A stretch of 64,000 nucleotides of DNA from Actinomycetota bacterium (GTDB lineage: Bacteria; Actinomycetota; Acidimicrobiia; Acidimicrobiales; MedAcidi-G1). Where the stretch lies: contig CACPKO010000003.1 of the NCBI GenBank assembly GCA_902634555.1, forward strand, positions 1 through 64,000, in the 5' to 3' direction. The translations under genes were made by a program, and so were the position numbers. Of this stretch, positions 21,513 to 31,666 are shown piece after piece. The number at the start of each line of letters is the position of its first letter. The stretch's first letter is position 1. The notes beneath the pieces are model-generated. The model was not told the DNA's origin. It searched no databases and worked only from the letters and a program-made list of their open reading frames with translations.

Positions 21513-22883
21513 TTAGGACCGGTACCAGATTGTTCCAGATGGGCCGTCTTCAAGAACGACACCACGACTAGATAGTTCGTCGCGTATACGGTCAGCTTCA
21601 GCAAAGTCTTTGGATAACTTGGCTTCAGTTCGCGCAGCCACCAAAGAATCAATTTCTTCACCGTCAGAAGAACTATCTGAGATAGTAGAAAGCTCAACTC
21701 CAAGAACTAATAAAAGTTCGCGTACCGCAGCAACCAAAGCAGATGCACTTTCAATGTCTTCTGTGTCCAGAGCACGATTCGCTTCTCTAACGGCATCAAA
21801 TATTACTGCCAAGGCACTTGCAGTTCCTAAATCATCATCCATTGCTGTTTTAAACTTTTCAACAACACTTTCATCAGGGGTTGTTTGAAGCAGTTCAACT
21901 CCAGCAACTCTTCTTTCAAAGCTATCAAGTCGATCAAGAGCGGAGTTTGCTGCTGTCATGCCATCTTCGTTTATTTCCATAGTTCTCCGGTAGTGGGTTT
22001 GAAGAACTAGTAAGCGCAGAGCCCGAGGGTCCCAAGCGTCTAATAGTTCTGCAAGAGTTCGAAAATTTCCGAGAGATTTGGACATTTTCTCATCACCAAC
22101 AAGAACCATCCCATTGTGAACCCATGTTCGGGCAAAGAGCCGGTCGCATCCAACACATTCCGCACGTTCGTTTTCATGATGAGGGAACACAAGGTCGTCG
22201 CCGCCGCCATGGATATCAAAATCGTCACCCAATATGTCTAAAGACATTGCAACGCATTCAATGTGCCACCCTGGACGACCAGGACCCCATGGCGATTCCC
22301 AAGTTGGCTCCCCGGGTTTAGCTGCTTTCCAAAGAGCAAAATCAAGCGGATCTTGTTTCTCTGTATCAACTTCTACCCGAATCCCAGATCCTTCACGTAA
22401 CTGATCTAGCGATTGATGAGCTAAAGCCCCATAACCATTGAGTTTGTTGACCGAGAAATAAACACCAGAAGACGTTGAATAGGCCATACCCCTGTCAACA
22501 AGATCTTGAATAACAGTGATCATTTCAGAAATATATTCAGTGGCTCTTGGCCGATAATCTGGATGGACTATATTCAGACGATCCATCTCATCAACATATT
22601 TTTGTTCGTAAAGTTGGGCTAATTCAGATTCGGTAGTTCCTTCTTTTGCTGCACGGTCAATAATCTTGTCATCAATATCCGTGATGTTTGACACTGCTGT
22701 TACTTCATAGCCGGACCACCTCAGGTACCGAACTAGAACATCAAACGCTAAAGATGATCGAGCATGGCCAAGATGCGGAATATCGTAGACAGTAGGGCCA
22801 CACCAATAGATCGAAACTTTCCCTGAATCGCGAGGTGCGAATTCACTCTTGTTCCCGGTCAGACTATCTGTAAAGCAAAGCAC
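21513..22883 (-). CDS. cysS: Cysteine--tRNA ligase
   Basis: YWCGPTVYDIPHLGHARSSLAFDVLVRYL, GRPGWHIECVAMS, HHENERAEC, KMSKSLGNFRTL; C-terminal helical extension. Confidence 0.95.
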   Translation of the reverse strand: MLCFTDSLTGNKSEFAPRDSGKVSIYWCGPTVYDIPHLGHARSSLAFDVLVRYLRWSGYEVTAVSNITDIDDKIIDRAAKEGTTESELAQLYEQKYVDEMDRLNIVHPDYRPRATEYISEMITVIQDLVDRGMAYSTSSGVYFSVNKLNGYGALAHQSLDQLREGSGIRVEVDTEKQDPLDFALWKAAKPGEPTWESPWGPGRPGWHIECVAMSLDILGDDFDIHGGGDDLVFPHHENERAECVGCDRLFARTWVHNGMVLVGDEKMSKSLGNFRTLAELLDAWDPRALRLLVLQTHYRRTMEINEDGMTAANSALDRLDSFERRVAGVELLQTTPDESVVEKFKTAMDDDLGTASALAVIFDAVREANRALDTEDIESASALVAAVRELLLVLGVELSTISDSSSDGEEIDSLVAARTEAKLSKDFAEADRIRDELSSRGVVLEDGPSGTIWYRS

Positions 22884-22925
22884 TAGATCAGGATACAGCA
22901 GGCTTAGAGGGGGAGAAGTGAGCCA

Positions 22926-24119
22926 TCAAATAAGAACCCCAAGCAATGCGGCTGCTTCAATGAGGTTTGAAGCAGCATTGGGATCTTCTTCGGCTCCATC
23001 AAGCATTTTTCGAGCGAATAAATCAAGCGACTCTCTTGCTTCCCAAGTGTCTAAATCGTTATCAAGTGCGTTCCGAACAGATGTCAGAAGTAAAGAAGAG
23101 TCGGGGCCTTCAGGGCACTGAGAAGCTTTTATTAGGCGATCAAGACGTTCAACCCCGTCGTGGATATCGTTATCAAACCATTCGAAACCTTCACGATAGT
23201 GATGGCCTAACAGGGAGAGCCTGACTGCCCGCGGGTCATATTCACGACATAAATCTCTTACGAAAACAAGATTGCCAAGAGATTTAGACATCTTTGTTCC
23301 TTTGTAGGCAACCATGCCCACATGCATCCAATGCTTAGCCAAAGGTTTTCCAGTTATTGCTCTACTTTGAGCCTCTTCACATTCGTGATGAGGGAAAATT
23401 AGATCATCGCCACCTCCATGAAGATCAATGGTTTCACCCAGGTCGTTCATCGCCATTGCTGAGCATTCAATATGCCAGCCAGGACGACCCTCTCCAAAAG
23501 GAGAATCCCATGAAGGTTCATCTGTTGCTGAGGGCTGCCACAGCACGAAATCAAGAGGATTGCGCTGCCTCGGGTCATCAGGGCGACCACCACGCTCAGC
23601 GGCGTAACTTTTCATAGTGTCCTCGTCGTAACCAGAGACAGAACCAAAGGAATCAAAAGTAGAAACATCAAAGAAGGTAATGCCATCTACTAAGTAGGTG
23701 TGTCCCGCTGCCTCAAGCCGACTAACGAGATCAACTATCGCATCAATAGATTCTGTGGCTCTCGGTTCAGCGGCTGCTGGCCGCATATTCAAATCAGCCA
23801 TGTCTTTTTCGAATTGAGCCATTTCTTGAGCCGCAAGATCCTGATAGTGAACACCTAACTCTCTGGCTTTGGGAAGAATAGAGTCATCGACGTCTGTGAC
23901 ATTACGAACCATTCGTACCTCATGGCCAAGATCTTCAAGTCGTCTTATAACAATGTCAAAAGTTAAGTACGTGAAGGCATGACCAAGATGGGTGGCGTCA
24001 TAAGGGGTAATTCCACAGACATACATGCTCACTAAAGATTCTGGTTTAAATTCTTTTACAGACTGAGATGCCGTGTCGTACAGTTTCATAAATCCAACCG
24101 AGTTATCAACATTTGTCAT
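22926..24119 (-). CDS. mshC: Cysteine:1D-myo-inosityl-2-amino-2-deoxy-alpha-D-glucopyranoside ligase (mycothiol biosynthesis)
   Basis: MYVCGITPYDATHLGHAFTYLTFDIVIRR and KMSKSLGNLVFVRDL, MshC-type variants of the CysRS motifs; lacks the CysRS C-terminal extension. Confidence 0.88.
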   Translation of the reverse strand: MTNVDNSVGFMKLYDTASQSVKEFKPESLVSMYVCGITPYDATHLGHAFTYLTFDIVIRRLEDLGHEVRMVRNVTDVDDSILPKARELGVHYQDLAAQEMAQFEKDMADLNMRPAAAEPRATESIDAIVDLVSRLEAAGHTYLVDGITFFDVSTFDSFGSVSGYDEDTMKSYAAERGGRPDDPRQRNPLDFVLWQPSATDEPSWDSPFGEGRPGWHIECSAMAMNDLGETIDLHGGGDDLIFPHHECEEAQSRAITGKPLAKHWMHVGMVAYKGTKMSKSLGNLVFVRDLCREYDPRAVRLSLLGHHYREGFEWFDNDIHDGVERLDRLIKASQCPEGPDSSLLLTSVRNALDNDLDTWEARESLDLFARKMLDGAEEDPNAASNLIEAAALLGVLI

Positions 24120-24150: not shown

Positions 24151-24227
24151 TGGCGCCCTCGGCAGGAATTGAACCTGCGGCCTACCGCTTAGGAGGCGGT
24201 CGCTCTATCCGACTGAGCTACGAGGGC
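24151..24227 (-). tRNA. tRNA-Arg (anticodon CCT)
   Basis: Minus strand GCCCTCGTAGCTCAGTCGGATAGAGCGACCGCCTCCTAAGCGGTAGGCCGCAGGTTCAATTCCTGCCGAGGGCGCCA: 7-bp acceptor, anticodon loop CTCCTAA, TTCAATT T-loop, encoded CCA. Confidence 0.97.
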
Positions 24228-24403
24228 CAGAATACAAAGACTGCAAAGGTCGCTATTCGTGATTAAAGGCTACAGGTGGGTGTGGTAAAGGGAATCAAAG
24301 GTATTTTTGATCGATTGAAATTTGTATGTGATAAAGAACACACCTCGCTATAGACGTAAATGCTGGAAGATAAAATTAGTTACAAGAATGGAGGCTAAGA
24401 GAC

Positions 24404-27349
24404 TTGAACGGTAAAGAAGAAACATCACAAATAATTGATGTAAACGCCCCAGGTTCCCTTCCATTTGTTGATTTTGAGATTTCAGAATTCTCTGAATTAA
24501 TTCAAGCCACCGAAAGCCTTCACGAATCAGGACACTGGGCTGTTAGAACACCTGCCGGACCTTTGATCGTCGGATACGACCAAACTCGAGAAATATTACG
24601 TGATTCTTCTTGGATAACTGTTCTTTCTGGTTTAAATAACTTCCAAACAGAAGCGACAATGGACCTCGACCTTGAAGTTTTGGTTGAACGAGCACGAGAG
24701 CTATTACCTGGTTCTAACCAGCAGTTACAAATGAGGCCCAACGTTCTCTCTGTAGAAGGAGAAGATCACCGTCGTTTACGACGACTAGTGAACTCTTCAT
24801 TCACTCCCGCTAGCAGCGAATCGTTGCGACCATTCATGCATCAGCACGCAACGAATTTGCTTGAAGTTTTAAAGCAAAAAGGCGGGGGAGACCTGGTAGA
24901 AGAATTTTGCCGACCTTACCCAATACCAGTTATCTGTCGATTACTAGGCATAGATGACACAGACCAAGAACAGTTTGGAATGTGGGCCGACACGATTTTC
25001 TCAGCTTTAGATGCAGATGCGAGTGCTGTTTTAGGGCGACTAGAAGACATCTCAGTTGCACAACAGGAACTTGACCACTATGCAACAGAACTTGTAGCAG
25101 ATCGAAAAGGTTGTCCACACGCTGACCTTGTAAGTGACTTAGTTCAAGCAAGTTACGAAGAAGATCGTTTAAGCGCCGACGAGCTTGTCGCAATGATTGA
25201 AGCAATCCTTCTTGCTGGAACAGACACGACTCGGAATCAACTCGGATCTCTTCTTGCAGTACTTGCTACACAACCTGATCAGTATCAACAATTACGACAA
25301 GATCGTTCATTAGTTCCAGCCGCAGTAGAAGAATCACTTCGTTTTATCGGGGCGGTACGAACAACAGCGCGTGTTGCCACTGAAGATTCTGTAGTCGATG
25401 GACTATTTTTCAGAGCCGGCACAACGGTTTTCCTCGGGCTCCATGCTGCGGGATTAGGTCAGCCTGATAGCGGCTTTCAATTTGACCTCAATCGTGAGGA
25501 TCGTGCTCCCCATTTAGCCTTCGGTTTAGGAGCGCATCACTGTTTAGGGGCGGCCCTTGCTCGCGCTGAACTTCAAGAAGCATTAAATGCATTTTTAGAC
25601 ATGGTCCCGGCTTTCGAACTATCTTCTCCAGTTTCATGGAAGCCTCTTTCTATGGGTATCTGGGGTCCAGATAAACTTGAGTTCCGAATATTAGACAAGC
25701 CAAATCTTGAAAAACCATCAGAGCAATTTGCGTTTGAACCAAGCAGTCAAAAAAGATTTTCAAATAAAGGCACAGCAGCTCCAAACTATGAGAATGAATG
25801 GATCCAAGAAGCCGACGAAGTTCGTAAGAAAATCTCTTCCGGGATCCCACGTCTCGTTAATGCCCCTTCAATTCCACCTGTTACCCGTTTAATACATACG
25901 ACGATTCGATTCGGGTGGGCCCTTTTGAGTTGGAAAGTATTAGACCGCAAATTTTCTTCAGAGAAACGAACAGAGTCGCTTTATCATCGACTTCGTATTG
26001 CAGCAGAACGTCTCGGGCCTACTTACGTAAAATTAGCGCAACTAATTTCTGCCGCTGAAGGAGTGTTCCCCCAAGCTCTAGTTGATGAATGCTCGCGATG
26101 TCGCGACCAGGCTAAACCTGCTAAATGGTGGAGAATTAATCGCATTATTAAAAACGATCTAGGGAAAATTACTGAAGAGTTCCAAAAGTTCGAGAAAGAG
26201 CCGTTTGCGGCCGCATCTATTGCTCAGGTTCACAACGCAACTCTTAATGATGGATCAGATGTTGTAGTAAAAATTCAAAGACCAGCAATTCAAAAGAAAG
26301 TCGTCCGGGACCTACAAGTGCTCGCATGGGTCGCTCCTCGGCTAGTCGGACGAATCCCAATAGCAGCACTAGCCAATCCTCCAGCGTTAGTACAACTCTT
26401 TGCAGAAACAATCTCTGAGGAACTGAATTTCCGTTTAGAAGTGGCAAACCTGTTTGAAATCCGAAGAGCATTAGCCACAGGAAATAAGAGCCAATGGGTT
26501 GCTCCTAACCCAGTATTAGATATGACAACGAATCGAGTGATTGTCATGTCTCGGGTATCAGGGATTCCTTTAACACGACTTGATTCAGAACAACTCACAG
26601 AAACAGCAGCACGCACTCTCTTTAGAAACATGGTTGATGGCCTATTAGAAGGAGCTGCTCTTCATGGCATATTCCACGGCGACTTTCACGCAGGAAATCT
26701 TTTCATTCTCGAAGATGAAATAATCGGACTTGTTGACTACGGCATGGTTGGCAGACTGGACCATGACCGGAGACTTTCATTTCTGCGCTACATAACAGGC
26801 CTTATGTCGGGAGATGTACAAGCCCAAGTTCTTGCTGTACGAGACCTAGGAGCGTTCCCACCTGAAACCGATGTGAGCGACCTCATAGAAAAACTCCAGT
26901 TAGACCGAGTTGATTTTGATCCACTCCAACTCACAGAAGAACAATTCGTTTCAGAATTTCAACATCTCCTAAAAGAACTTCTCGCAAGTGGTGCTCGAAT
27001 ACCGAAAGAACTGATGCTTTTCGTCAAGAATTTCGCGTATCTCGCTTCTTTCGTTCAGAAAATAGATCCAGATATGGACCTGCTAGAAGAGTTTTCAACA
27101 ATAAGTTCAGGGTTCTTGACAAAGCATGGCTTCAGAGTTTCCGCTGAACTCGGACTTGGAACAAATGACCTCCAGGTTTCTCAGGCGTCATTTAGACGCG
27201 CTGCTGGAATAAAAGACGATGTTGAAGAACTTACCTGGCGTGATCTCACAAAACGTAGAGATGCGATGGCCAGCCGTCTAATACCCGCTGATTCAAGCAT
27301 CCGAAACCATGTACTCAATAGCGAAAAAATTTCAGAAAAAAGCGAATAA
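24404..27349 (+). CDS. Cytochrome P450 - UbiB/ABC1 atypical kinase fusion protein
   Basis: P450 half: LLAGTDTTRNQ I-helix, EESLR ExxR, FGLGAHHCLGAALARAEL heme-Cys loop. Kinase half: LGPTYVKLAQLISA (KxGQ-like), AAASIAQVHNATLNDGSDVVVKIQRP, FHGDFHAGNLF, LVDYGMVGRL. Single uninterrupted 981-aa ORF, TTG start with GGAGG upstream. Confidence 0.93.
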   Translation: MNGKEETSQIIDVNAPGSLPFVDFEISEFSELIQATESLHESGHWAVRTPAGPLIVGYDQTREILRDSSWITVLSGLNNFQTEATMDLDLEVLVERARELLPGSNQQLQMRPNVLSVEGEDHRRLRRLVNSSFTPASSESLRPFMHQHATNLLEVLKQKGGGDLVEEFCRPYPIPVICRLLGIDDTDQEQFGMWADTIFSALDADASAVLGRLEDISVAQQELDHYATELVADRKGCPHADLVSDLVQASYEEDRLSADELVAMIEAILLAGTDTTRNQLGSLLAVLATQPDQYQQLRQDRSLVPAAVEESLRFIGAVRTTARVATEDSVVDGLFFRAGTTVFLGLHAAGLGQPDSGFQFDLNREDRAPHLAFGLGAHHCLGAALARAELQEALNAFLDMVPAFELSSPVSWKPLSMGIWGPDKLEFRILDKPNLEKPSEQFAFEPSSQKRFSNKGTAAPNYENEWIQEADEVRKKISSGIPRLVNAPSIPPVTRLIHTTIRFGWALLSWKVLDRKFSSEKRTESLYHRLRIAAERLGPTYVKLAQLISAAEGVFPQALVDECSRCRDQAKPAKWWRINRIIKNDLGKITEEFQKFEKEPFAAASIAQVHNATLNDGSDVVVKIQRPAIQKKVVRDLQVLAWVAPRLVGRIPIAALANPPALVQLFAETISEELNFRLEVANLFEIRRALATGNKSQWVAPNPVLDMTTNRVIVMSRVSGIPLTRLDSEQLTETAARTLFRNMVDGLLEGAALHGIFHGDFHAGNLFILEDEIIGLVDYGMVGRLDHDRRLSFLRYITGLMSGDVQAQVLAVRDLGAFPPETDVSDLIEKLQLDRVDFDPLQLTEEQFVSEFQHLLKELLASGARIPKELMLFVKNFAYLASFVQKIDPDMDLLEEFSTISSGFLTKHGFRVSAELGLGTNDLQVSQASFRRAAGIKDDVEELTWRDLTKRRDAMASRLIPADSSIRNHVLNSEKISEKSE

Positions 27350-27411
27350 CAAAACTCGGCGAATTTGATGAATTGCATTTAGTCGTTGACAAGTGCTTAA
27401 GTAATTTATGC

Positions 27412-27900
27412 ATGGCAAATAAAGAATTACCTGAATCAGTCCAACGTGTTGTGGAAACAGGAGCGGCTCTTGGTGTAAGAGTTGAACCAAAAACTTTCCC
27501 TGAAAGCACTAGAACAGCACAAGAAGCTGCTGATGCTATTGGCGTGGATGTTGGACAAATTGTCAAAAGTCTCATCTTCCAAGTAGGGCAAGAACTTGTT
27601 CTTGCCTATGTGAGTGGGAAGAATCAACTCGATGAAGCAAGCCTTGCCGCTGCCGCCGGCGGAGGGAGATGTAAGCGAGTAGATGCTCAAACAGTACGGG
27701 AAGCCACTGGATTCTCCATCGGTGGAGTCCCCCCGTTTGGGTTGCGAGAAAAACTACGAGTCTTTATCGACGAAACACTCCTTTTCTATAGCGAAGTTTG
27801 GGCAGCCGCAGGAACCCCTCATGCTGTTTTTGCAATAGATCCTAAAGATCTAGTCGTTGCATCTCGTGGGAAAGTTTCTGAAATCGCATCAAAAAACTAA
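27412..27900 (+). CDS. YbaK/EbsC-family (aminoacyl-tRNA deacylase-like) protein
   Basis: TAQEAADAIGVDVGQIVKSLIF, GFSIGGVPPFGL, DETLLFYSEVWAAAGTPHAVF. Start moved to the internal ATG (MANKELPE). Confidence 0.9.
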   Translation: MANKELPESVQRVVETGAALGVRVEPKTFPESTRTAQEAADAIGVDVGQIVKSLIFQVGQELVLAYVSGKNQLDEASLAAAAGGGRCKRVDAQTVREATGFSIGGVPPFGLREKLRVFIDETLLFYSEVWAAAGTPHAVFAIDPKDLVVASRGKVSEIASKN

Positions 27901-27916
27901 TGCTGCAACGGATGGC

Positions 27917-28177
27917 TTATCTGCCGAGACGAGATAAAGCTTCGAGTTCACTTAGTCCTTCAATCTGAAACCTTTTCGTACGGGATGTTAGGCCAGTCAA
28001 GACTGATACCCCCGCCCGTTTTAAACCAAGTGCCTTAGCCAATTCTTTGCGTGCAGCCTCAGTAGCACGACCGTTTACGGGAGCCTCGTTTACTCTGATT
28101 TTTATGACTCCGTGATCGTAACGGACATCATTTTGGCTGGCCCTGGGAGAAACTAGTGCTTCAAGAATGCAGGACAT
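27917..28177 (-). CDS. DUF167 / YggU family protein
   Basis: VSPRASQNDV, IKIRVNEAPVNGRATEAARKELAKALG. Confidence 0.88.
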   Translation of the reverse strand: MSCILEALVSPRASQNDVRYDHGVIKIRVNEAPVNGRATEAARKELAKALGLKRAGVSVLTGLTSRTKRFQIEGLSELEALSRLGR

Positions 28178-28187
28178 TGACTTTACG

Positions 28188-29168
28188 TCACTGATTAAAC
28201 AAGGGAGCTAATGTTTCACCGGCCAGCGCAACCATCTCTGAATCATGTCCATTGGGAATCATATTTAAGGTCAATCCATCTAAACCGAGATCAAGCAGTC
28301 CTTGGATCTGCTCTTTTACTTGATCGGGACCACCAAAAATCATCCTCGAAGTAAGCATGGCTTTAAAGTCATCATCAGCAGTATCCCAATCAATGCCTTT
28401 AGATTGCCAATATTCTTTTCTGACTGCTTCGGCTGCTTCTTCGGTGGGAGCAATACCCAAAAACCCAAGCCAAGAAACACAAATCTCGTTTCTATCACGG
28501 CCCAGCCGGCCACAATGCTCTTCTAGAACTTCTAGTTTTCTAGGTATTTCATCACGATTACAAATCAGATTGGACTCGTCCGCATATTGCGCCACCATTC
28601 GAAGAGTTTTTTTCTCACCTCCACCACCAATCATTACGGGGATTTTATGAAGGGGTTGAGGCTCGTTTATTGCATCAACAACTGAGTAGTGTTTGCCAGA
28701 AAAACTTGGGCGCTCTCCCTCCAGCATTGGAAGAATGATCTGTAAAGCTTCCTCGAGTTTTTCAAACCGATCGGTGAAAGTTCCAAACTCAAAGCCAAGA
28801 GCGTTGTGCTCCATCTCAAACCATCCAGCACCGATACCGAGTAGGGCCCGACCACCTGAAATTACATCAAGGGTGGTGATTGTTTTCGCTAAAAACGTGG
28901 GGTTCCTATAAGTGTTGCCAGTGACTAGTGAACCGAGATGAATCTTTGAAGTTCTTGCTGCAAGTGCTGCTAGTAGCGAGTAGCACTCAAGCATGTAGTC
29001 ATCAGGATTTCCAATTCCCGGCAACTGGTAGAAGTGGTCCATCACGAAGACGGTGTCAAAGCCACTCGCTTCGGCAGCAAGGGTTTGGGCAACTACATCT
29101 TCAAAGAGTGTTTCTCTGGAGCCATTTGGATAATTAAAATTTGGAATTTGATAGCCGAGTTTAGTCAT
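28188..29168 (-). CDS. LLM-class (F420-dependent-type) oxidoreductase
   Basis: GFDTVFVMDHFYQLP, TLDVISGGRALLGIGAGWFEMEHNALG, PVMIGGGGEKKTLRMVAQYAD. Confidence 0.9.
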   Translation of the reverse strand: MTKLGYQIPNFNYPNGSRETLFEDVVAQTLAAEASGFDTVFVMDHFYQLPGIGNPDDYMLECYSLLAALAARTSKIHLGSLVTGNTYRNPTFLAKTITTLDVISGGRALLGIGAGWFEMEHNALGFEFGTFTDRFEKLEEALQIILPMLEGERPSFSGKHYSVVDAINEPQPLHKIPVMIGGGGEKKTLRMVAQYADESNLICNRDEIPRKLEVLEEHCGRLGRDRNEICVSWLGFLGIAPTEEAAEAVRKEYWQSKGIDWDTADDDFKAMLTSRMIFGGPDQVKEQIQGLLDLGLDGLTLNMIPNGHDSEMVALAGETLAPLFNQ

Positions 29169-29258: not shown

Positions 29259-30173
29259 ATGAAACGCTCGTGGGCTTCTTTAGAAGAATTTGAACAGTTC
29301 TTGGATAATGGCGGAATTGTTGAACCGGTTGATGATATGCCCAGAGAATATCGTCAAGCTGTTTTTGATTTCATAGAGATGCACGCAAACAGTGAACTTA
29401 TGGGTGGTTTAACAGAACGAGATTGGATACCCAAAGCACCGGGGTTACGACACAAAATGTCGGTCATAGCCAAAACACAAGATGAAATAGGGCACGCTCA
29501 CCTCTTATATATGGTTGCCGCAGACTTAAAAATAAAAACACGTGAAGAAATGATGCAAGATCTATTCGCTGGAAAAAGCAAATTCCATAATGTGTTTCAT
29601 TACCGAGCTAAAACCTGGGGAGATCAAGTAGCAATTGCTTTTCTTGTAGATGCGGCTGCTCTTGTCAGCCAACAGGCAGTCTTTAAGAACTGTTCATATG
29701 GCCCTTACAAAAGAATCCTCAGACGGATCATTGCAGAAGAAGGTTTTCATCTTCGTTTTGGTGAAGAGTCTGTGCTGCGTATCGCTGAAGGAACAGAGGT
29801 TCAAAGAAGCATGTTTCAAGAGTCAATCAATGACTGGTGGTGGCCCGCCCTTCAACTATTTGGGCCAGATTCAAAACCCAATGATTTATTACTGAGGTGG
29901 CATATAAAGTCTGAACGAAATGAAATATTACGAGATAGATGGATACAAAAATTTGTTCCACTTCTTCAAGGGTATGGATTTACTATCCCGGATTCAGGAT
30001 TAAGAAGAAATGAAGAGAAAGATCGATGGGAAATAGGCCCCATTGACTGGGAGCCATTAAAACAAACGATGGTTATGGGGGGGCCAGATTCTGCTCGACG
30101 TATTTCTGAAGCATCAGATAGTTGGGATAAAACAGGTTGGGTGCGCGAGGCCTTAGAGAAGGTCTCAGTATGA
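29259..30173 (+). CDS. paaA: 1,2-phenylacetyl-CoA epoxidase subunit PaaA
   Basis: KTQDEIGHAHLLYMVAADL, RRIIAEEGFHLRFGEE di-iron ligand motifs; operon context. Confidence 0.93.
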   Translation: MKRSWASLEEFEQFLDNGGIVEPVDDMPREYRQAVFDFIEMHANSELMGGLTERDWIPKAPGLRHKMSVIAKTQDEIGHAHLLYMVAADLKIKTREEMMQDLFAGKSKFHNVFHYRAKTWGDQVAIAFLVDAAALVSQQAVFKNCSYGPYKRILRRIIAEEGFHLRFGEESVLRIAEGTEVQRSMFQESINDWWWPALQLFGPDSKPNDLLLRWHIKSERNEILRDRWIQKFVPLLQGYGFTIPDSGLRRNEEKDRWEIGPIDWEPLKQTMVMGGPDSARRISEASDSWDKTGWVREALEKVSV

Positions 30174-30640
30174 GTATAGAAATTGCGGTTTCAGTTCAAG
30201 ATATTCATGCAGCTGTAGAGACGGTAAATGATCCTGAATATCCAGGAATCTCAATAGTTGATTTAGGGCTCCTTGAGAATGTAAAAGTAAATGAAATAGG
30301 CGAAGTAGTTATTGAACTCATTCCAACTTTTTCTGGCTGCCCGGCATTACAAATGATCGCTCAAGACGTTCGTGAAGTTACAGAAAAATTATCGGGAGTG
30401 AAGAAAGTCGATGTGGTTTGGTTAAATAGCCCTGTATGGAATGTCAATCGAGTTACCGCAAAAGCAGAAAAAGATTTGGCAGAAAAATTCATTGTTGCCG
30501 TGCAAATACAGGATCGAAAAGTCGAATGTCCAAGATGTCAATCTGAAACAACTATAAAGTCACATTTTGGCCCCAGTAGATGTAGATCTGTACATGTGTG
30601 CTCGGGGTGTAATGAAATCGTTGAAACACTCCGGGATTGA
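30170..30640 (+). CDS. paaD: PaaD, 1,2-phenylacetyl-CoA epoxidase accessory protein
   Basis: VNDPEYPGISIVDLGLL, PTFSGCPALQMIA (MIP18/DUF59 fold), C-terminal CPRCQSE...SVHVCSGC; ATGA overlap with paaA. Confidence 0.9.
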   Translation: MSIEIAVSVQDIHAAVETVNDPEYPGISIVDLGLLENVKVNEIGEVVIELIPTFSGCPALQMIAQDVREVTEKLSGVKKVDVVWLNSPVWNVNRVTAKAEKDLAEKFIVAVQIQDRKVECPRCQSETTIKSHFGPSRCRSVHVCSGCNEIVETLRD

Positions 30641-30642
30641 AT

Positions 30643-30924
30643 ATGCGTATTTACGAAGTTTTCCTTAAGGCAGATGGAAAAGAAGAGTTTCGTCATGCTG
30701 GAAGTATTGAAGCGCCTACGGACGAACTCGCTTTAGTTCTGGCTCGAGAGAATTATGCAAGACGAGCGGAAGGCACTCATATGTGGGTAGTTGATCGCGA
30801 GAACATTTGTGTTAGCGAAGATGGTTTCATTGACGCGAATTTAAATAAGCCTCACCGTCACAATGATGGAGAAAGAGTAGCAAAGTGGAGAAAATCACAA
30901 CGAAATAAGAAGAGTGATGATTAA
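30643..30924 (+). CDS. paaB: 1,2-phenylacetyl-CoA epoxidase subunit PaaB
   Basis: MRIYEVFLKADGKEEFRHAGSIEAPTDELALVLARENYARRAEGTHMWVV. Confidence 0.92.
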   Translation: MRIYEVFLKADGKEEFRHAGSIEAPTDELALVLARENYARRAEGTHMWVVDRENICVSEDGFIDANLNKPHRHNDGERVAKWRKSQRNKKSDD

Positions 30925-31666
30925 GTCAGTTTTGCCCTCTGAGATAAAAGAGTATTTATTAGCTTTTGCTGACGATGAACATTTAATGGGACAACAACAT
31001 ACGGAATGGATAGGTATTGCCCCGTTTTTAGAAGAAGATATGGCGTTTGCCAGTATCGGTCAAGACGAGTTAGGGCATGCATCAATGTTGTATGCCCTAA
31101 TATTGGAGGACTCTTCTGAAATTGATGCCTTTATATTTAATCGCAAACCCGAAGAATGGCGTTCTTGTCAACTAGTTGAATCAAACCATCGAAATTGGGA
31201 AGAAGCCTTGATACGGCATTGGTGTTACGACATGGCTGAAGATTTGCGCTGGGAGCTTTTTAGAGAGTCTTCGCTTCCCGAACTGGTTTTAATTTCAGAG
31301 CGGGCGCTTAAAGAAGAGAAGTATCATCGACAGCACGCAGATGCATTAGTTGAAAACCTACTTACAGTTCCTGCTAGTCAATCTCGGTTGACGAAAGCCT
31401 TAGAAGAAATAGTCCCTGAAGTTGTGGAATTATTCTCTTCAATCCCGGGTGAAACAGAAGCAATATCTTCTGGATTAGTTTCAGGAAAGTATTGTGACGT
31501 GTTCTCAACTTGGCGGTCACGAGTTGAAAACCGGTTTGGAACTTTAGATTCAAAGTTGTTTACGACTAGTGATCATCAGAGTCGAACAAAAAGGCATTCA
31601 GATTTTGGTCCGTTGTATGGAAGGATACGTGAGGTCTTCTTACTGGACCCTAAAGCGGTTTGGTGA
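30917..31666 (+). CDS. paaC: 1,2-phenylacetyl-CoA epoxidase subunit PaaC
   Basis: LAFADDEHLMGQQHTEWIGIAPFLEEDMAFASIGQDELGHA; last gene of the overlapping paa operon. Confidence 0.92.
   Translation: MIKSVLPSEIKEYLLAFADDEHLMGQQHTEWIGIAPFLEEDMAFASIGQDELGHASMLYALILEDSSEIDAFIFNRKPEEWRSCQLVESNHRNWEEALIRHWCYDMAEDLRWELFRESSLPELVLISERALKEEKYHRQHADALVENLLTVPASQSRLTKALEEIVPEVVELFSSIPGETEAISSGLVSGKYCDVFSTWRSRVENRFGTLDSKLFTTSDHQSRTKRHSDFGPLYGRIREVFLLDPKAVW

Follow-up and report, generated by a model that had tools for sequence, protein, structure and literature searches.

A conserved cytochrome P450-UbiB fusion protein of marine Acidimicrobiales, encoded in light-response-type gene clusters in many lineages

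Introduction

Is a cytochrome P450 joined to a UbiB/ABC1 atypical kinase a real protein, and what could its two halves do together? This question is raised by a locus in the window, by which we mean the whole stretch of 64,000 nucleotides that was analysed. What UbiB/COQ8 proteins do at the molecular level, as an ATPase that handles lipids, as a kinase or as a scaffold, has long been in question. Where nature has fused one to a monooxygenase, the partner of the UbiB part is given, and the job of that part can be tested within one polypeptide.

The fusion gene and its two domains

The features of the locus are collected in Table 1. The gene is a single open frame of 981 codons with 0 internal stops in the ORF translation, and the Shine-Dalgarno sequence GGAGG is found at 24390-24394, 9 nt ahead of the TTG start. 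In Pfam, the p450 family PF00067 matches residues 106-398 of the protein (E 1.4e-24) and the ABC1 family PF03109 residues 566-807 (E 1.3e-53), both above the curated cut-offs. The preliminary description, which had reported a P450 and a UbiB kinase in one 981-aa frame, was thus correct, and the motifs are as it gave them. The hallmark residues of both halves are nearly all invariant across 29 fusions.

Table 1. Coordinates of the fusion gene, its domains and motifs, and the gene that follows it (positions in the window)
Feature	Position	Strand	Remarks
P450-UbiB fusion gene	24404..27349	+	981 aa; coordinates take in the stop codon
Cytochrome P450 domain, residues ~15-430, CYP107-like	24446..25693	+	Pfam and structure matches
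I-helix AGTDTT, residues 271-276	25214..25231	+	invariant in 29 fusions
ExxR (ESLR), residues 310-313	25331..25342	+	E310 and R313 invariant (EESLR in the sequence)
Haem-binding loop FGLGAHHCLG, residues 373-382, ligand C380	25520..25549	+	C380 invariant
Variable linker, residues ~431-464	25694..25795	+	poorly conserved; dN/dS 0.29-0.44
UbiB/ABC1 atypical-kinase domain with N-terminal extension, residues ~465-960	25796..27283	+	orthologous over that length to the stand-alone UbiB of the order
KxGQ-motif position, here KLAQ, residues 543-546	26030..26041	+	invariant in the fusions
Catalytic-type lysine K623 (VKIQRP)	26270..26272	+	invariant
HGDFHAGN (758-765) to DYG (778-780), catalytic and metal-binding motifs	26675..26743	+	
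YbaK/aminoacyl-tRNA editing family protein (PF04073), next gene downstream	27373..27900	+	fusion neighbour in the window's genus only

The first half belongs to the P450 family by its PF00067 score over the cut-off, the haem cysteine, the ExxR motif and the acid-alcohol pair of the I-helix. These features support a complete cytochrome P450 that is predicted to bind haem. By sequence, the solved structures nearest to it are those of CYP107-type and related P450s; the identity in the matches to CYP107-type enzymes is about 30%, and the label CYP107-like has no formal nomenclature assignment behind it. P450 families are commonly set at about 40% identity to a named member. The CYP107-type enzymes OleP, EryF/CYP107A1 and P450BioI share the fold and the motifs at this level of identity, but none of the joining to UbiB that distinguishes the present protein. 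Other natural P450 fusions are known (CYP102, CYP116B and FdxE-CYP143), in which the P450 is likewise covalently linked to a helper domain, mainly for electron delivery. In contrast to these, the helper here is an ATP-binding UbiB domain and the fusion contains no reductase.

The second half belongs to the UbiB/ABC1 family by its PF03109 score over the cut-off and the family motifs; AAASIAQVH occupies residues 602-610. The NCBIfam model for UbiB, TIGR01982, matches residues 507-896 with 257 bits, under its equivalog cut-off of 487.55. The closest solved structures by sequence are MABP-1 (the best), another ABC1 protein and COQ8, and MABP-1 is only distantly similar (85.7 bits with NF050082, whose cut-off is 800). 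COQ8A/B, MABP-1 and plant ABC1K1, all of PF03109, are alike in having a KxGQ-type motif, an alanine-rich AxASIAQVH loop, the catalytic lysine, HGDxHxGN and D(F/Y)G, and ABC1K1 is also linked to light stress (PMC11613423). The UbiB part of the fusion differs from them in its place behind a P450, in having KLAQ for KxGQ, in scoring below the UbiB equivalog level and in the absence of an evident transmembrane helix; no evident transmembrane segment was seen anywhere in the fusion protein.

The canonical KxGQ is absent from the fusion, and the Gly-to-Ala substitution pointed out in the preliminary description is real. It is invariant in the fusions, but it is not specific to them, as about half of the stand-alone orthologues also have KLAQ and the others KLGQ. 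A fusion-specific change is thereby ruled out. Since the substitution is a clade trait, it gives no reason to assume that the fusion is in a special state; and because Ala and Gly vary within the orthologous clade, membership in UbiB/ABC1 is not in doubt.

An AlphaFold2 model of the fusion, built from 29 sequences, has a mean pLDDT of 72.7 and a pTM of 0.71. The fold search with this model gave P450 structures only, among the matches listed, because the P450 half dominates the ranking. At about 35 residues (431-464), the variable linker is shorter than the earlier estimate of about 70-100, because the sequence from about residue 465 onward is the conserved N-terminal extension of UbiB.

Homologues and origin of the fusion

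When 85,462 genomes were scanned for exact peptides of the window protein, a search that reaches near relatives only, 35 loci were found in other assemblies. At 29 of them the gene is a full-length single ORF with 53-98% identity; four others end at contig ends (L030, L031, L036 and L037) and two contain runs of N (L033 and L034). All loci but one are labelled Acidimicrobiales, Actinomycetota or 'Candidatus Microthrix'. The exception, labelled Gemmatimonadetes, is probably a mislabelled bin, since its sequence groups inside the fusion clade. The fusion, or a contig-end piece of it, was found in 30 of 397 genomes sampled from the order, belonging to three families; outside the order none was detected among 398 genomes sampled from the phylum, where no genome but that of the window gave a full-length match. 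One genome (G700) has two full-length copies, on contigs G700:C27 and G700:C6.

As the draft genome that contains the window is fragmented, an assembly or frameshift artefact joining two genes had to be considered. The chance of this is negligible and the artefact is refuted by the homologues: dozens of separate assemblies repeat the one-ORF architecture at 53-98% identity, and the domain boundary is conserved under purifying selection. No real two-ORF orthologue was found either, the apparent splits in L033 and L034 being the N runs. In comparisons of the window with L005, L006 and L008, dN/dS is 0.02-0.05 in both domains and 0.29-0.44 in the linker; against L007 the dS of the domains is saturated. 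Both domains are under strong purifying selection. The fusion is thus confirmed as a real, conserved two-domain protein of marine Acidimicrobiales. The preliminary description was aware of no characterised P450-UbiB fusion, and no description of one, functional or other, was found in the open literature searched.

A variable, fast-evolving linker between two separately folding domains would also be expected of a loose fusion, in which the domains act independently and are joined for co-expression only, or in which the UbiB part is a peripheral membrane tether. This is improbable: three families retain the architecture, no real split was found among them, and none of the fusions has lost the UbiB active site.

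In the tree, the UbiB parts of 31 fusions fall into a single clade with support 100/100, sister to the stand-alone UbiB of the order, which is orthologous to residues ~465-960 and about 42-46% identical. A single clade is likewise seen for the P450 parts, in a tree that was quickly made and has long outgroup branches. A single fusion event is the simplest reading. The stand-alone UbiB genes of other Acidimicrobiales families differ from the fusion in having no P450 part, no light-cluster markers nearby and, in the loci checked, an adjoining nucS: the downstream neighbour is NucS in both cases checked with Pfam, and members of that 219-aa family come after several of the other genes. A housekeeping UbiB role for the fusion is unlikely, because 34 of the 48 genomes of the window's family are without it and have only weak PF03109 matches in frames of ~650 aa. 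The one exception among the 34 is a 144-base contig-end piece in G042, which could be an undetected carrier or another UbiB.

Gene neighbourhood

In many lineages the setting of the fusion is a cluster of the light-response type. A CarH-like regulator with HTH and B12-binding domains lies directly 3' of the fusion in 17 of the 35 loci, though not in the window's genus, and its start overlaps the stop of the fusion by 4 nt (ATGA or GTGA) in 8 of 15 loci inspected. A photolyase gene is found near the fusion in 13 loci. Outside the window's genus, two related gene orders can be distinguished. The first (L009-L018, L020, L026, L030, L032, L033, L037, L038 and G043, several cut by contig ends) runs from an FAD oxidoreductase (PF01593) through the fusion, the HTH_17 and B12-binding regulator, an SDR with DUF2867, a DUF1295 protein and a PlsC-type acyltransferase to a photolyase and a sigma factor. 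The second (L027-L029 and L039) has FxsA, the fusion, sometimes DCC1, photolyase, a PNPOx-like protein, the FAD oxidoreductase, DUF1295 and SDR/DUF2867. The FAD oxidoreductase is phytoene-desaturase-like. In a third group (L019, L021, L023-L025, L031 and L035) there is only a gene with a cNMP-binding domain ahead of the fusion; no light-cluster genes were seen near the fusion in these seven loci, nor in the f60/g65 genomes L071 and L072.

The regulator scores 66 bits with NF052513, below the CarH equivalog cut-off of 400, and its Pfam match is HTH_17 and not a MerR model. In 13 sequences of it W-x9-EH and ExH are kept, which we take to be the adenosyl-contact and axial-His sites of CarH, and the final G of ExHxxG is absent.

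The clusters resemble the light-inducible LitR/CarH clusters of Pseudomonas, Thermus and Streptomyces, where a B12-domain regulator also accompanies photolyase, SDR and FAD oxidoreductase genes; that of Pseudomonas contains a photolyase, an SDR, an FAD oxidoreductase and a furan-fatty-acid synthase (PMC9758184). They differ in that no P450-UbiB gene is described there and that the furan-fatty-acid synthase UfaM is not among the genes seen here. This context points to a role of the fusion in coping with sunlight. A similar cluster without the fusion is present at L113 (G018:C68:46000-62000), with photolyase-like, PNPOx, DUF1295, SDR/DUF2867 and CarH-like genes, the photolyase being missed by PF00875.

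Distribution and habitat

The fusion is carried by 14 of the 48 genomes of the window's family, including G008, where it is cut by a contig end. Photolyase (PF00875) was detected in 10 genomes of the family, all of them carriers. With the photolyase-like gene of G018 included, the count is 10 of 14 carriers and 1 of 34 non-carriers (Fisher p 1.5e-6; genus-stratified 2.5e-5). The association is not due to physical linkage alone, since photolyase and fusion are on different contigs in G001, G004 and G023. The genera MedAcidi-G2B and MedAcidi-G1 are reported to be epipelagic (PMC10205998), and G004 and G013, respectively, should belong to them. By this inferred genus assignment, the two photic-reported genera account for 11 carriers among 17 genomes and the remaining genera for 3 among 31. 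Shared habitat could explain the pattern of fusion and photolyase without a direct functional link. Rhodopsin occurs in 3 of the 48 genomes, all carriers, which is too few for a habitat marker.

This distribution also bears on a role in catabolism or detoxification, in which the P450 would act on dissolved hydrophobic compounds (sterol-, polyketide- or macrolide-like) and the UbiB part would bind them in the way that MABP-1 binds macrolides. The enzymes closest to the P450 are of the CYP107 type, from pathways for macrolides and other natural products, and the best PDB match of the UbiB half, MABP-1, is an ATPase conferring macrolide resistance (PMC6208485). In addition, P450 families of the window's bacterial family are tied to the breakdown of recalcitrant compounds (PMC10205998), and at L060:6940-9688 (-) an unfused P450 lies directly upstream of a UbiB of a different clade, beside thiolase-like and flavin-monooxygenase-like genes. 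Of 21 loci with other UbiB genes, 3 (L060, L088 and L099) have an adjoining P450, a suggestive count in which L060 had been chosen for that adjacency. However, the fusion is rare outside the photic-reported genera (3 of 31), whereas it is in deep genera that P450s are enriched; the genes that cluster with the fusion are photolyase and the CarH-like regulator and not catabolic ones; and the similarity to MABP-1 is distant. A catabolic role is therefore quite unlikely.

Proposed function

The explanation that we favour, with a probability of roughly 0.4, is that the fusion is an enzyme of light or photo-oxidative stress, in which the P450 would oxidise a membrane lipid or prenyl-quinone that is presented by the UbiB ATPase. 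The P450 half would insert oxygen into a hydrophobic molecule derived from the membrane, for which a fatty-acyl lipid and a prenyl-quinone are the likeliest candidates. The UbiB half, an ATPase or atypical kinase, would hand this substrate to the attached P450, as proposed for COQ8. The fusion would form part of a response to sunlight or photo-oxidative stress, in keeping with the many lineages that encode it together with the CarH-like B12 regulator, photolyase, the phytoene-desaturase-like FAD oxidoreductase, the DUF2867 SDR and the DUF1295 protein. Light induction, the membrane substrate and the ATP-dependent hand-over between the halves are inferred. It is plausible, as in the preliminary description, that a UbiB ATPase is coupled to a monooxygenase acting on a hydrophobic substrate, and the overall reading shifts from a P450-UbiB acting on lipid to a light-associated P450-UbiB. 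Counted in favour of this explanation are the one-ORF architecture in three families, the intact motifs, the purifying selection, the single origin, the cluster, the co-occurrence with photolyase, the excess of carriers in the photic-reported genera and the analogy of COQ8B and COQ6 described below; counted against it are G018, where the cluster occurs but the fusion does not, the fusion loci without cluster genes, the failure to detect photolyase, CarH-like or DUF2867 genes in the window's incomplete genome, the absence of an evident transmembrane segment, and shared habitat as a possible cause of the co-occurrence with photolyase. The fusion adds an unrecognised component to the light and photo-oxidative-stress gene sets of marine Actinobacteriota.

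As to the substrate, phytoene/squalene synthase (PF00494) was found in 0 of 10 genomes, 8 of them carriers, and the positive controls matched. Home-made carotenoids are therefore unlikely substrates, and the terpenoid-like substrate suggested earlier is weakened. UbiA-family prenyltransferases are present in all 11 genomes searched and hence do not discriminate between them; with these enzymes in every genome, a quinone is a possible substrate. In Rhodobacter, the phytoene-desaturase-like FAD enzyme UfaD desaturates phospholipid acyl chains before O2 is inserted by UfaO (PMC7380195). By analogy, it may be suggested that the FAD enzyme of the cluster and the P450 act in sequence on acyl chains.

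The part played by the UbiB half can be considered in the light of its relatives. Plant ABC1K1 requires its active-site Asp under high light (PMC11613423). COQ8B with ATP raises the activity of the hydroxylase COQ6 only when COQ3 is present, and COQ8B phosphorylates COQ3 (PMC7615680). This result fits substrate hand-over and also a regulatory or scaffold fusion, in which UbiB, as a kinase or an organiser driven by ATP, would control the P450 or gather partners without handling substrate. The lack of stimulation of COQ6 alone favours the latter, and COQ8B acts by streamlining the COQ metabolon and does not stimulate single enzymes, save for a marginal effect on COQ7:COQ9 (PMC7615680). The clustering of the fusion with several other redox enzymes, and the retention of KLAQ with all catalytic residues, are also consistent with a scaffold; the occurrence of the fusion without the other cluster genes argues against it, and we regard this alternative as rather unlikely. 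The most specific form of the light-stress reading, a self-contained enzyme under the control of a B12 light sensor whose UbiB part would draw a membrane lipid or quinone into the attached P450 at the expense of ATP and have it oxidised there, is likewise doubtful. If it were true, the fusion would offer direct access to the function of UbiB proteins.

The locus in the window

In the window's genus the neighbours of the fusion are mshC-like, tRNA-Arg and ybaK-like genes. Except for an MPAB homologue 6 kb away, no light-cluster genes were found near the fusion in the window, and photolyase, CarH-like and DUF2867 genes were not detected in the window's genome, which is 73% complete. The light-response context is lost from the fusion locus in this genus. 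The MPAB homologue (MPAB_Lcp-type, PF09995; 33453-34367 (-)) is about 51% identical to a protein near the fusion in L010 and its relatives.

Upstream, cysS-type and mshC-like genes adjoin at 21513-24119, the mshC-like product scoring 442 bits, just below the equivalog cut-off of 485, and a tRNA-Arg gene (anticodon CCT) at 24151-24227 (-) lies between the mshC-like gene and the fusion. Downstream, about 2.9 kb separate the ybaK-like and luciferase-like genes in L005-L007 (L005:11493-14410), an insert absent from the window (27900-28188) and from L008; it codes for a photolyase-related DPRP, a small membrane protein and DUF2071. Farther downstream in the window, the phenylacetyl-CoA epoxidase genes paaA and paaC are located at 29259-31666.
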